The position numbers and the translations under genes were made by a program. From assembly GCA_017408045.1 (NCBI GenBank), contig JAFQVL010000071.1:1-37603 (forward strand): a DNA stretch of 37,603 nt, written 5' to 3'. Positions within the stretch are counted from its first letter, which is position 1. Each line of letters starts with the position of its first letter. Below the pieces are notes generated by a model, which saw nothing but the letters and a program-made list of their open reading frames with translations, was not told where the DNA came from and made no database searches. The DNA is from Clostridia bacterium. Its GTDB lineage: Bacteria; Bacillota; Clostridia; Christensenellales; Borkfalkiaceae. Positions 31,490 through 35,534 of the stretch are shown here, in pieces.

Positions 31490-32563
31490 TTATTCCTCCC
31501 CCTGCGAAGCGAGCTGCGCCTCTCTGTCCGCAATCGAAAGCGCCTCTACCATCGACCCGATGTCCCCCATCATAAAGGCGTCTAAATTGTATTGACTGAG
31601 CCCAATTCTATGGTCGGTGATACGGCTTTGGGGGAAGTTGTAGGTGCGGATGCGTTCGCTTCTGTCGCCGCTTCCCACCATGCTGCGGCGGTTTTCTTCA
31701 CGCGCCTTCGCGCTCTGACCGTTGTAAAAGTCGTAGATACGCGAACGAAGTACCTTAAAGGCACGCTCCTTGTTTTTGAGCTGCGAACGTTCGTCTTGAC
31801 AGGTAACGACAATCCCCGTCGGGAAGTGAGTAATACGCACCGCCGAGGCTACTTTGTTGACGTTCTGACCGCCTGCGCCGCCCGAATGGAAAATGTCGAT
31901 ACGAATGTCCTTGTCGGAGATTTCCACCTCGACCTCTTCCGCCTCGGGAAGTACCGCAACCGTCGCCGCCGAGGTGTGAATTCTGCCCTGCGTTTCGGTG
32001 GCAGGTACGCGTTGCACGCGGTGCACGCCGCTTTCGTATTTTAAGAGTTTGTATGCGCCCGCACCGGAAACGGAATAAATGGCTTCCTTCATACCGCCGA
32101 GTTCCGTGGGGCTAACCTCAATCTCTTCCACACGCAACCGCCTTGCCGCGCAGAAGTTCAAATACATTCTGCAAAGCTCGGCGGCAAACAGAGCCGCCTC
32201 CTCACCGCCCGTGCCGGCACGGATTTCCAAAATACAGTTCTTTTCGTCGTTTTTATCCTTAGGCAACAATAAAACTTTCAGTTCCCCGTGCAACGCGGTA
32301 AGCCGTTCTTTGCAGACATACCCCTCGTCAAGGAGCATTTTTTTCATCTCCCCGTCCGTTTCCTCTTCCGCCAAAGCAAAGGCGTCGTCCATCTGCCGCT
32401 TACATTCGAGGTATTCGCGGTACTTGTCTGCCGTTTCGGAAAGGTCGGCGTGTTCCTTGGAATATTTTTGCCATACGCTCATGTCCGCGATGACGTCGGG
32501 ATTTAACAGCTGCTCGGATAAAAACTCCGCACGCTTTAAAATATCGTCCAGTTTTTTCAGCAT
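31490..32563 (-). CDS. prfA: peptide chain release factor 1
   Basis: Release factor 1 reads UAG and UAA. The 357-residue protein has the codon-recognition PxT-type motif (PAT, 187-189) and the GGQ motif at 231-233 within HSGGAGGQNVNK, whose Gln is methylated by PrmC. The start is ATG 32563, with AAAGGAG upstream; the frame is open to 32599. The hairpin array (32600-32815) lies directly upstream in its 5' region, between it and yqhQ-prmC. Followed by rsmI with a 2-base gap. Confidence 0.97.
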   Translation of the reverse strand: MLKKLDDILKRAEFLSEQLLNPDVIADMSVWQKYSKEHADLSETADKYREYLECKRQMDDAFALAEEETDGEMKKMLLDEGYVCKERLTALHGELKVLLLPKDKNDEKNCILEIRAGTGGEEAALFAAELCRMYLNFCAARRLRVEEIEVSPTELGGMKEAIYSVSGAGAYKLLKYESGVHRVQRVPATETQGRIHTSAATVAVLPEAEEVEVEISDKDIRIDIFHSGGAGGQNVNKVASAVRITHFPTGIVVTCQDERSQLKNKERAFKVLRSRIYDFYNGQSAKAREENRRSMVGSGDRSERIRTYNFPQSRITDHRIGLSQYNLDAFMMGDIGSMVEALSIADREAQLASQGEE

Positions 32564-32599: not shown

Positions 32600-32815
32600 G
32601 TGAATTGAAAACTACGTTTTCGTGAATTGCATACTGTGTATGCGTGAATTGTTTTGCGCGGCAAAACGTGAATTGATTGCCTATGGCAATCGTTGCGGAA
32701 GTATTTAAATGATTCCATAACGCAAGGCAAAGCCTTGCAATTCACGAACGCGTACAGCGTTCTATTCACGACGGCTATGCCGTCAATTCACGATTTGTGA
32801 AACAAATCAATTCAC
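32600..32815. repeat. hairpin array, copy A
   Basis: Small perfect hairpins are separated by one 7-base spacer: GTGAATT four times on the left, then a central part, then AATTCAC (or ATTCAC) four times on the right. Hairpin stems in order are GAAAAC/GTTTTC, GCATAC/GTATGC, GTTTTG/CAAAAC, GATTGCC/GGCAATC, a central CGTT-GGAA/TTCC-AACG, GCAAGGC/GCCTTGC, GAACGC/GCGTTC, GACGGC/GCCGTC, GATTTG/CAAATC. Left and right spacers are complementary, so the whole can fold as one branched structure. No coding frame is evident. A near-identical copy is at 34894-35107. Confidence 0.85.
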
Positions 32816-32835: not shown

Positions 32836-32948
32836 CGGCGTAGATGCAAGCAAGACAAGGAGAACTGAGTACCCCGACGGGAGTGTACTAACCGTACACG
32901 AGCGAGGGGCACGCAAGTTCGACGAAGTATTGCGCCGCATATACGTCG
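32836..32948. repeat. structured dispersed repeat, copy 2
   Basis: CCCC 32872-32875 pairs with GGGG 32906-32909, and GTGTAC 32883-32888 with GTACAC 32894-32899 around TAACC; the internal loop is GACGGGA/GAGCGA. Flanking blocks match the other copies (GCAAGCAAGACAAGG and GTTCGACGAAGTATTGCGCCGCA). An outer pairing of CGTAGATGC with GCATATACG is possible. It lies six bases after the yqhQ-prmC stop. Confidence 0.8.
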
Positions 32949-32954
32949 TGAAAA

Positions 32955-34796
32955 CTAAAAGATGGCTTTTACAAAACGATCTTTCCCCGCCAAATCTTTC
33001 ATAATCATCGTGTACTCGGCGTGCTTGAACAATCTAGCAACCTCGGTGGCTTGCCCGTCGCCCACTTCCAAAATCACGATACCGCCGCGCGCAAGGCACT
33101 TGGGCGCATCTTTGGCGATGCGACGATAATAGTCCAAGCCGTCCTCGCCGCCGTCCAACGCCAAATGCGGTTCATATTCCTTGACTTCCTTTTGCAAGCC
33201 CGCAATATCCGCCGTCGGGATATAGGGAGGGTTGGAAACGATTACGTCAAATCTTCCGCGAATACGGCCAAAAAGGTCGGATTTGACAAAGCGTACGTTC
33301 GCCTCGTTCGCCTCCGCATTCTCTTTGGCGAGCGCAAGCGCTCCGTCGGAAATATCACTCGCCGTAACGGCAGCGTTGATTCCACGCTTTTCCAGCTCCT
33401 TTGCTATTGCAATGGCAATCGCGCCGCTGCCCGTGCAAAGGTCTAAAATTTGACAATCGTCATTCACGCCGTTGACGACGTGCAATACGAGCTCTTCCGT
33501 TTCGGGGCGGGGGATTAACACCCTTTCGTCGACCTTGATGGTGTAGCCGTAAAAATCGGTGTCGCCAAAGATATACCAAAGCGGTCTACCCGTCAAGCGT
33601 TCCTCGACGACAGAGAAGATTTGCTGTACTTCCGCACGCTTTAAGATCCGTTCTTCGCCGCCCGCGATTGCGCTTTTAGGAATGGAGAGTTTTAAGGCAA
33701 AAATCCACTCTGCCTCCTCCTCGTCAATCTGCGCCTGCGCAAAACGTTTCTTCGTATGTTTCAGGATTTCCGTCAACTTGCCGCCGATCGGAAACATTTT
33801 TTCAGGGATATTTTCGTCCGCGTCCATCGCCTGCACCGTACGGAAAGCAGCAATCGCGCACTCAATCATATCGTCGGTCGGTTCTTTGGTCGTCAAGCGT
33901 TGCAGCAGCAAACCGGGCCACTTAAAGACGTACAAAATCTTTGCATCCGATTTTGCCAGCAGCCGCAGGATTTCGTACGATAAGCCTGCAATCAACGGCA
34001 GCAATAAGACTTTTAAGCCAAGGCGAATCACGTCGTTGACCGTGTCGTTTCCCACGTACAGCCACTCTGCCGCCGCATAGTTCGCCAACGAGCCGATGAT
34101 AATCGAAACGAAGATTACGATGAATAAGAAGGTCGTACCGCAACGGTCGTGCACACGGCTGCACCCTCTAACGTTCTCCACCGTCAGCTCCAAGCCACGC
34201 TCTACACAAGTAATCGTCTTATGCTCTGCCCCGTGATACATGTAGGTACGACGAAGGGTTTTGGAGATGGTAATCAGCGTGATATACGCAATAAAAATCA
34301 CCAACCGAACGCCCCCCTCAACGAGGTTGAACCATAAAAGGTTTAAGTCTTTTGGATTTTCTCCCCAGCCCACCCAACGGGAAATCGCCTTGGTGAGTAG
34401 TTGCGGCAAAAACAAAAACAGCGCGAACGCAAACAGAATGGCAAGCGCGATGGAGACGAAATCCACCACCGAACTCATAGACACCTTGTGTTTTTCTTCC
34501 AGCCATTTTTCCGCTTTCGAGGCAGTTTCTTCCTCCTCGACGGCAACGTCTGCGCTGCGCATCAGCACTTTAAAGCCAAGGGTCAGCGATTCTACAAAGT
34601 TCACCACCCCTCGAATCAAGGGAAAGCGGGAGAATCTGCTTCGTTTTTCGGGGGGCGTGATGCGCTTGGATTCGATCTGCACCTTTCCGTCGGGGTCGCG
34701 CACCGCAGTTGCGTACGCCGTCCTTCCCTTCAGCATCAAGCCTTCCATAACCGCTTGCCCACCGATATAGGTTTTTTGGATTTTTTCTTTTTTCAT
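32955..34796 (-). CDS. prmC: fusion of YqhQ-like (DUF1385) membrane protein and release factor methyltransferase PrmC
   Basis: The 613-residue protein joins two usually separate proteins. Residues about 1-315 match YqhQ/DUF1385: YIGGQAVMEGLMLKGR, several membrane segments, and MYHGAEHKTITCVERGLELT with GCSRVHDRCGTTF. Residues about 335-613 match PrmC, which methylates the GGQ glutamine of release factors: an N-terminal helical domain, IPRPETEEL, the S-adenosylmethionine site LDLCTGSGAIAIAIA, and the catalytic SNPPY. The join is in frame with no internal ribosome site noticed. The neighbours rpmE and prfA are the normal context of separate yqhQ, prmC and prfA genes. Fusion would tether the methyltransferase to the membrane. 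Confidence 0.93.
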   Translation of the reverse strand: MKKEKIQKTYIGGQAVMEGLMLKGRTAYATAVRDPDGKVQIESKRITPPEKRSRFSRFPLIRGVVNFVESLTLGFKVLMRSADVAVEEEETASKAEKWLEEKHKVSMSSVVDFVSIALAILFAFALFLFLPQLLTKAISRWVGWGENPKDLNLLWFNLVEGGVRLVIFIAYITLITISKTLRRTYMYHGAEHKTITCVERGLELTVENVRGCSRVHDRCGTTFLFIVIFVSIIIGSLANYAAAEWLYVGNDTVNDVIRLGLKVLLLPLIAGLSYEILRLLAKSDAKILYVFKWPGLLLQRLTTKEPTDDMIECAIAAFRTVQAMDADENIPEKMFPIGGKLTEILKHTKKRFAQAQIDEEEAEWIFALKLSIPKSAIAGGEERILKRAEVQQIFSVVEERLTGRPLWYIFGDTDFYGYTIKVDERVLIPRPETEELVLHVVNGVNDDCQILDLCTGSGAIAIAIAKELEKRGINAAVTASDISDGALALAKENAEANEANVRFVKSDLFGRIRGRFDVIVSNPPYIPTADIAGLQKEVKEYEPHLALDGGEDGLDYYRRIAKDAPKCLARGGIVILEVGDGQATEVARLFKHAEYTMIMKDLAGKDRFVKAIF

Positions 34797-34893: not shown

Positions 34894-35107
34894 GTGAATT
34901 GAAAACTACGTTTTCGTGAATTGCATACTGTGTATGCGTGAATTGTTTTGCGTGGCAAAACGTGAATTGATTGCCTATGGCAATCGTTGCGGAAATATTT
35001 TAATGATTCCATAACGCAAGGCGCAGCCTTGCAATTCACGAACGCGTACAGCGTTCTATTCACGACGGCTATGCCGTCAATTCACGCGATACGTTATCGC
35101 AATTCAC
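34894..35107. repeat. hairpin array, copy B
   Basis: This is the second copy of the array at 32600-32815, in the same orientation. Most differences are in hairpin loops (GCGCGG to GCGTGG; AAA to GCA between GGC and GCC), while the stems are kept. The last hairpin is replaced (GCGAT/ATCGC instead of GATTTG/CAAATC), and a further CGCGCC/GGCGCG hairpin follows. This pattern fits selection or a copying process that preserves stem pairing. Confidence 0.85.
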
Positions 35108-35117
35108 GCGCGCCAAG

Positions 35118-35148
35118 GCGCGCAGGTTTGACGCCGTATTGCGCAGCA
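35118..35148. repeat. degenerate tail fragment of the structured repeat
   Basis: This stretch resembles the right end of the structured repeat (GCGCGCAGG...GACG..GTATTGCGC.GCA) with a few differences, just before full copy 3. It parallels the tail fragment at 1-18 before copy 1. Confidence 0.55.
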
Positions 35149-35158
35149 GCCCTTGCGA

Positions 35159-35281
35159 TTTTAAGTCGCAGTTGCAAGCAAGGCAAGAAGAACCGAGCAC
35201 CTCGACGGGAGTGTACTAGCCGTACACGAGCGAGAGGCGCGCAGGCTCGACGAAGTATTGCGCCGCAAATCCGACTTAAAA
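35159..35281. repeat. structured dispersed repeat, copy 3
   Basis: CCTC 35200-35203 pairs with GAGG 35234-35237, and GTGTAC 35211-35216 with GTACAC 35222-35227 around TAGCC. A perfect 10-bp outer stem (TTTTAAGTCG 35159-35168 with CGACTTAAAA 35272-35281) closes the whole unit. It lies immediately past the rpmE terminator. Confidence 0.85.
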
Positions 35282-35330: not shown

Positions 35331-35534
35331 TTACATACCGTATCTCTTTTTGAATTTATCGATACGTCCACCGGTATCAACTAACTTCTGCTTGCCCGTG
35401 AAGAAAGGGTGGCAGTTGCTGCAAATATCTACCTTCATAACGTCGCCGTCTCTCGTCGTACCCGTTTTGAACGTAGCGCCGCACGCGCAAGTCACAGTCA
35501 CTTCGTGATATTTGGGATGAATCTCAGCCTTCAT
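35331..35534 (-). CDS. rpmE: 50S ribosomal protein L31 (zinc-type)
   Basis: The 67-residue protein starts [20 protein letters not shown] and has the four-cysteine zinc set of the C+ form (C16, C18, then the CSNCH pair), followed by [23 protein letters not shown]. Length is typical. The start is ATG 35534, with GAGGTG just upstream; the frame is open to 35645 across the promoter. It has its own promoter and terminator and lies upstream of yqhQ-prmC and prfA, a common Firmicutes order. Confidence 0.97.

Follow-up and report, generated by a model that had tools for sequence, protein, structure and literature searches.

Dispersed arrays of short hairpins with mirrored 7-base words in gut Clostridia and their probable relation to elements carrying an intervening-sequence protein gene

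The 23S rRNA intervening-sequence proteins (PF05635; IVP, S23 or S23p) are four-helix bundles, and although the family has been recognised for about 30 years, to our knowledge no function has been assigned to it. In the intervening sequence (IVS) of Coxiella, tandem heptamers lie upstream of the S23p gene (PMC4990558), and the FLSHclust survey placed a 23S rRNA IVP among CRISPR-adaptation associations (PMC10910872). Fixed 7-base words are also known from the TAACTGA repeats of Beggiatoaceae, which form intergenic sets (PMC4679880), and dispersed palindromic repeats of the REP/BIME/REPIN type are paired with RAYT proteins. Described here are arrays that resemble each of these systems in part, in which a constant 7-base word alternates with short hairpins of variable sequence and is mirrored about a central core.

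Two mirrored hairpin arrays in a translation gene cluster

The arrays were recognised in a window of 37,603 nucleotides, by which is meant the whole stretch of DNA analysed, from an uncultured gut Clostridia-type bacterium whose genome assembly (G000) comprises 1.28 Mb and is 81% complete. Two near-identical copies, A and B, lie among genes transcribed from the minus strand:

31490-32563, minus strand: prfA, peptide chain release factor 1 (NCBIfam TIGR00019, E 1.3e-141; NF001859, E 6.8e-147), downstream neighbour of copy A
32600-32815: copy A, whole, about 216 bases
32600-32690, no strand assigned: copy A left half, four units of GTGAATT plus hairpin, stems GAAAAC, GCATAC, GTTTTGC and GATTGCC
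32691-32722, no strand assigned: copy A core, asymmetric imperfect palindrome CGTTGCGGAA..TTCCATAACG
32722-32815, no strand assigned: copy A right half, four units of hairpin plus AATTCAC, stems GCAAGGC, GAACGC, GACGGC and GATTTGT
32955-34796, minus strand: DUF1385-PrmC fusion gene (PF07136, E 1.1e-78; TIGR03534, E 2.3e-80), between copies A and B
34894-35107: copy B, whole, near-identical to copy A
34894-34984, no strand assigned: copy B left half, with the four hairpins of copy A
34985-35016, no strand assigned: copy B core
35016-35107, no strand assigned: copy B right half, outermost hairpin GCGATACGTTATCGC, against GATTTGTGAAACAAATC in copy A
35331-35534, minus strand: rpmE, ribosomal protein L31 (TIGR00105, E 5.5e-33), upstream neighbour of copy B

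The minus-strand order is thus rpmE, copy B, the DUF1385-PrmC fusion, copy A and prfA. The original prediction had described perfect hairpins punctuated by GTGAATT on the left and AATTCAC on the right, and its coordinates are exact: in copy A the GTGAATT words start at 32600, 32622, 32644 and 32668, and AATTCAC closes the right-hand units at 32745, 32791 and 32815, the second right-hand spacer being TATTCAC, with one mismatch. Both copies hold a central imperfect palindrome, GTTGCGGAA…TTCCATAAC, between four left and four right hairpins, and in copy A this core occupies the position where coding relatives hold an IVP gene. The difference in the outermost right hairpin is a whole-hairpin exchange that falls exactly between two AATTCAC words; otherwise only a few loop and core bases distinguish the two copies. 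The placement of copy A directly upstream of prfA was likewise borne out, 37 bp separating it from the start codon, with the ribosome-binding site in that gap. A repeat unrelated to the arrays, GTGTAC/GTACAC (GGGAGTGTACTARCCGTACACGAGCGAG...TCGACGAAGTATTGCGCCGCA), adjoins both copies (32836-32950 and 35150-35270, with a further fragment at about 35113-35150), and a related copy of it lies at the prmC/prfA junction of G175, the closest sampled relative, where that genome has no array.

The ends of each copy are mutually complementary, so that one strand can fold back on itself as in IVS elements, and because small perfect hairpins stand between the words, a single strand can form stacked four-way junctions around the core. 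Folding of both strands of copy A gave a plus-strand RNA with a predicted energy of -88.6 kcal/mol, against -57.5 +/- 4.5 for shuffled sequences (z -6.9), and a minus-strand DNA with z -7.4; none of the shuffles matched the stability of the real sequence. The tree-like fold that had been proposed, with spacers paired across the central hairpin, is the predicted minimum of copy A at 4 of 4 levels; in copy B the spacers pair at only 1 of 4. All or all but one of the levels are paired in 24 of 45 arrays, the rest favouring alternative hairpin pairings, and thus the tree holds for about half of the arrays.

Copy number, distribution and remodelling of the arrays

A search of the genome under study for GTGAATT-N10-20-GTGAATT returned 30 forward and 39 reverse matches, against 0 for the reversed control, corresponding to about 20 arrays dispersed between genes. 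When segments were delimited by the words alone, with pairing playing no part in their definition and a hairpin requiring at least 4 end pairs, the word-delimited segments proved to be hairpins in 54 of 65 cases in this genome, in 77 of 90 in G175 and in 38 of 51 in G095, as compared with about 0.6% after shuffling. This proportion of paired segments, together with the copy number, indicates that the arrays are not a product of chance. The most frequent architecture is 4+4, with four words on each side in 28 of 53 parsed arrays, and the core is asymmetric, its arms reading GTTGYGG and GTTAWGG in 45 of 50 arrays. By inspection, these arms misfit the GTTRRRY of integron attC sites, and that identity was rejected.

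Given that copies A and B are flanked by co-directional genes belonging to a single translation cluster, that their predicted RNA fold is very stable, and that IVS elements of rRNA are excised by RNase III (PMC4990558), the arrays might be cis-acting RNA elements (attenuators, terminators, stabilisers or RNase III sites) of the adjoining mRNA, which for copy A would be that of prfA. This explanation is unlikely: arrays occupy co-directional, divergent and convergent gene gaps alike, and the polarity of the core with respect to transcription is random (9 same, 15 opposite, p 0.31). Relatives lack an array at prfA, as in G175 and in G126, where the gap at the prmC/prfA junction is only about 20 bp, and no Rfam 15 family reaches its gathering score within the window. 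A strand-specific RNA regulator was rejected on the same random polarity and mixed gene contexts. One array core elsewhere in the genome (L066, 3361-3610, contig C27) holds a terminator-like hairpin, AAATCCCCTTGG...CCAAGGGGATTT.

Within the genus, a three-word pattern was matched by 17 of 57 genomes, with 1 to 86 matches each and none in the control, and was absent from the other 40. At least three further families of the order also have arrays, patchily distributed, that share this word and core but mostly carry other hairpins, and the reversed-pattern control again gave 0; where array-bearing records have names, as with SIG403 and SIG406, they are MAGs of rumen and hindgut Clostridia. Persistence over several families, presence in every intergenic context and in both orientations, and perfect hairpins with variable loops are what would be expected of a DNA-architecture element, that is, of supercoil-dependent cruciforms or sites for nucleoid or replication proteins selected for a position-independent function. 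That 40 of the 57 genomes in the genus lack the pattern is hard to square with an essential chromosomal function, however, and this explanation, which would leave the IVP gene found at the core of some arrays unexplained, is judged improbable. Arrays of other design were also seen. In RGIG4006 (L077, 2585-2773), a series of ten hairpins, whose GTGAATT words all point the same way and which has neither mirrored half nor core, lies directly upstream of a start codon, and in Bacteroidales MAGs (L101, L140, L145) AATTCAC forms tandem and mirrored arrays without hairpins.

Comparison with G175, whose DUF1385-PrmC protein is 77% identical to that of the genome under study, revealed that array sites mostly differ between the two genomes. 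At least one site is common to both, among the part of the G175 arrays compared, and there the outermost hairpins have been kept and the inner ones replaced. No exact empty site was found among the relatives compared. Hairpin order and content differ from species to species and in some cases from copy to copy; for hairpins of the same type, per-site variation is 0.43-0.45 in loops and 0.02-0.04 in stems, the stem figure being biased downward by the way types are defined. Whole hairpins thus behave as cassettes that can be exchanged between constant words. The recurrence in relatives that had been proposed as a test of a mobile or functional unit is therefore seen in part, with word and core recurring in many relatives and the order and content of hairpins not being conserved between species.

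Remodelling also extends to the words themselves. G175 contains gene-less arrays with a second word, GCGATAT, which flanks IVP genes in other species, as well as chimeras in which a GTGAATT half is joined to an ATATCGC half at the common core:

L350, 4249-4459: chimeric array of G175
L356, 2556-2766: chimeric array of G175
L286, 11497-11681: chimeric array of G175

The halves of these chimeras cannot pair, and thus a complete tree is not obligatory. In the same genome, copies of the GCGATAT/ATATCGC family at L276 (12289-12395) and L281 (1052 and 2828), some of them coreless, lie beside a GGGCGGGGGCTTGCTCCCGCC repeat.

Such changes invite the reading that the arrays are a mutational by-product of tandem duplication, template switching and gene conversion, with no dedicated machinery and with the IVP gene incidental to one array. 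The left arm of an IVP-flanking array in G179 (L295, contig C40) is a unit of two hairpins repeated five times in tandem; in RGIG4180, ATTTCAC stands at all four right-hand spacers, only one side having been homogenised; and the site shared with G175 retains its outer hairpins around replaced inner ones. The processes named would account for each of these, but hardly for a word and core common to several families, for the preferred 4+4 architecture, or for IVP genes that recur at this point of the core and are associated with mirrored repeats throughout the phylum, as set out below, so that little weight is given to this reading.

Arrays with an intervening-sequence protein gene at the core

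A single array in the genome under study carries a gene. At G000:C40:93251-93834, GTGAATT and AATTCAC halves enclose a core that is opened by an ORF of 117 amino acids, which matches PF05635 (E 2e-26) and 2RLD (E 1e-30), the latter a four-helix-bundle protein of solved structure; this is the only PF05635 gene found in that genome. In four further species (genomes G169, G154, G179 and G187; L292, L294, L295 and L302), an orthologous IVP gene precedes what reads as glnS and is enclosed by GTGAATT/AATTCAC half-arrays ending in the core arms, and at L301 an IVP gene is placed likewise at another locus. The IVP gene of G186, at a locus other than the glnS site, is enclosed by arrays of ATGAATT, and the other words found at IVP hairpin arrays of the genus are GTGAAGTT, GCGATATA, ATGAAAT, GATGATAT, ATATAAC and TTATGAT. 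In a tree of the IVP proteins, those with the same word cluster, several of the members being orthologous loci; the GCGATAT and ATGAATT groups each span two different loci. Stand-alone heptamer arrays, of the TAACTGA type or other, were considered and rejected, the CTAGTAA word of G244 being confined to one IVP locus.

An automatic score, which asks for a constant 7-mer beside at least three hairpins, identified a constant-word hairpin array at 18 of 28 IVP loci of the genus and at 0 of 29 prmC control loci (p 4e-8), counts that are not all independent because many of the IVP loci are orthologous. Across the phylum, the flanks of IVP loci are mutually inverted repeats (z > 5) in 21 of 28 cases, against 0 of 29 controls (p 6e-10), and a tandem period of 7 scores best in 17 of 28, against 2 of 29 (p 1e-5). 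Together with the Coxiella heptamers, these flanks suggest that mirrored 7-base repeats are general to IVP elements. Two IVP elements whose mirrored repeats measure about 7 bases appear, by eye, to lie in a 23S rRNA gene (L331, G304) and in an RNase P RNA gene (L333, G236); at L330 (G203) and L332 (G283) the flanking repeats have a period of 11 rather than 7.

Arrays are more often present in genomes that have an IVP of the GTGAATT type (4 of 5, against 13 of 52, p 0.02), whereas possession of any IVP does not predict arrays (7 of 20, against 10 of 37, p 0.37). In the array-rich genomes G175, G095 and G166, which are incomplete MAGs (G095 is 93% complete), no PF05635 match was obtained at E<=0.001. 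Array-rich genomes of this kind, and the lack of a general correlation, count against mobilisation of the arrays in trans by IVP.

The search for other mobilising proteins was negative. Reverse transcriptases, whether of group II introns, retrons or DGRs, were rejected on the absence of PF00078 from G000, G175 and G095. The REP-associated tyrosine transposase that the original prediction suggested seeking is not what was found: PF01797, the RAYT family, has no match in the 81% complete genome under study, the same search being positive in 5 of 14 control genomes, and the protein linked to the arrays is instead PF05635. The arrays are dispersed, intergenic, palindromic, mosaic and hybrid, as BIMEs are (PMC2817692), but their hairpins are not one conserved sequence, 26 stem types occurring among the 54 paired segments of the genome under study, in keeping with the earlier remark that they are unlike ordinary REP clusters. 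It is thus very improbable that they belong to a REP/BIME family driven by a RAYT, or Y1 tyrosine transposase.

A proposed element and its comparison with known systems

The reading preferred here, at a probability of roughly 60%, is that copies A and B are gene-less ('miniature') relatives of dispersed elements whose full form has a PF05635 gene at the apex. Its grounds are direct observations, namely the anatomy and number of the copies, the conservation of word and core alongside turnover of the hairpins, the IVP gene in the core position, and the association of IVP with mirrored repeats. The ends of the elements are, by general design, mirrored arrays of a 7-base word, and in the present lineage the words are separated by hairpins. 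Each IVP lineage would recognise its own word on folded nucleic acid, and the element may spread as a selfish repeat, with a relation to IVP comparable to that of REPs to RAYTs, while recombination or template switching between copies would remodel hairpins and half-arrays. We know of no catalytic site in IVP, and a host activity would thus be needed for strand transfer. Visual inspection of the sequences flanking complete copies revealed no target-site duplication, and no insertion event was caught among the genomes compared.

A broader proposal, advanced only tentatively, is that these belong to a class of mobile or selfish elements, widespread and hitherto undescribed. In each, an IVP, as a small four-helix bundle that binds RNA or DNA, would have a 7-base word of its own, arranged in mirrored arrays, and would propagate or maintain the element; the lineage considered here would have evolved tree-folding hairpin arrays and multiplied gene-less copies. 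A literature search, most subscription journals lying outside its coverage, returned no description of the hairpin arrays or of their link to IVP, and there is a reasonable chance that the arrays represent a new class of element. An IVP at the apex, tracking of word and protein, and about 20 gene-less copies make for a testable system of element and protein, in which the word bound by each protein, the choice of RNA or DNA, and the movement of arrays can all be addressed. With four stacked four-way junctions and exchangeable hairpins, an array would be an unusual natural nucleic-acid architecture.

The closest described elements are the IVSs with an S23p/IVP gene known from Coxiella, Leptospira and others. 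Like the arrays, they have complementary ends that fold back and 7-base repeats near the gene (GTGAATT/AATTCAC in the present case), some members hold a PF05635 gene in the loop, as does the array on contig C40, and no enzyme is known for either. Copies A and B differ in lying between protein genes rather than in a 23S rRNA gene, in having no PF05635 gene in the loop, in ends where eight unrelated hairpins are interspersed with a 7-base word, and in their dispersal as some 20 copies. REP/BIME/REPIN repeats and their RAYTs share with the arrays many dispersed palindromic repeats, hybrid arrays, a single genomic gene flanked by inverted repeat copies, and a protein lineage that tracks the word (PMC2817692). 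Close as the layouts are, the arrays do not qualify as members, the genome having yielded no Y1 transposase; their gene is PF05635, and the constant part is a 7-base word among variable hairpins. Copies A and B recall MITEs in being short, non-coding and inverted at the ends, with a longer coding relative, but the parent-like copy encodes PF05635 rather than a known transposase. The TAACTGA repeats of Beggiatoaceae are direct, have neither hairpins nor a mirrored half, and lie mostly upstream of start codons. Finally, constant and variable segments alternate in CRISPR as in the arrays; yet in the latter a 7-base segment stays constant, palindromes make up the variable segments, and the orientation reverses at the midpoint, consistent with the initial judgement that the arrays are not CRISPR.
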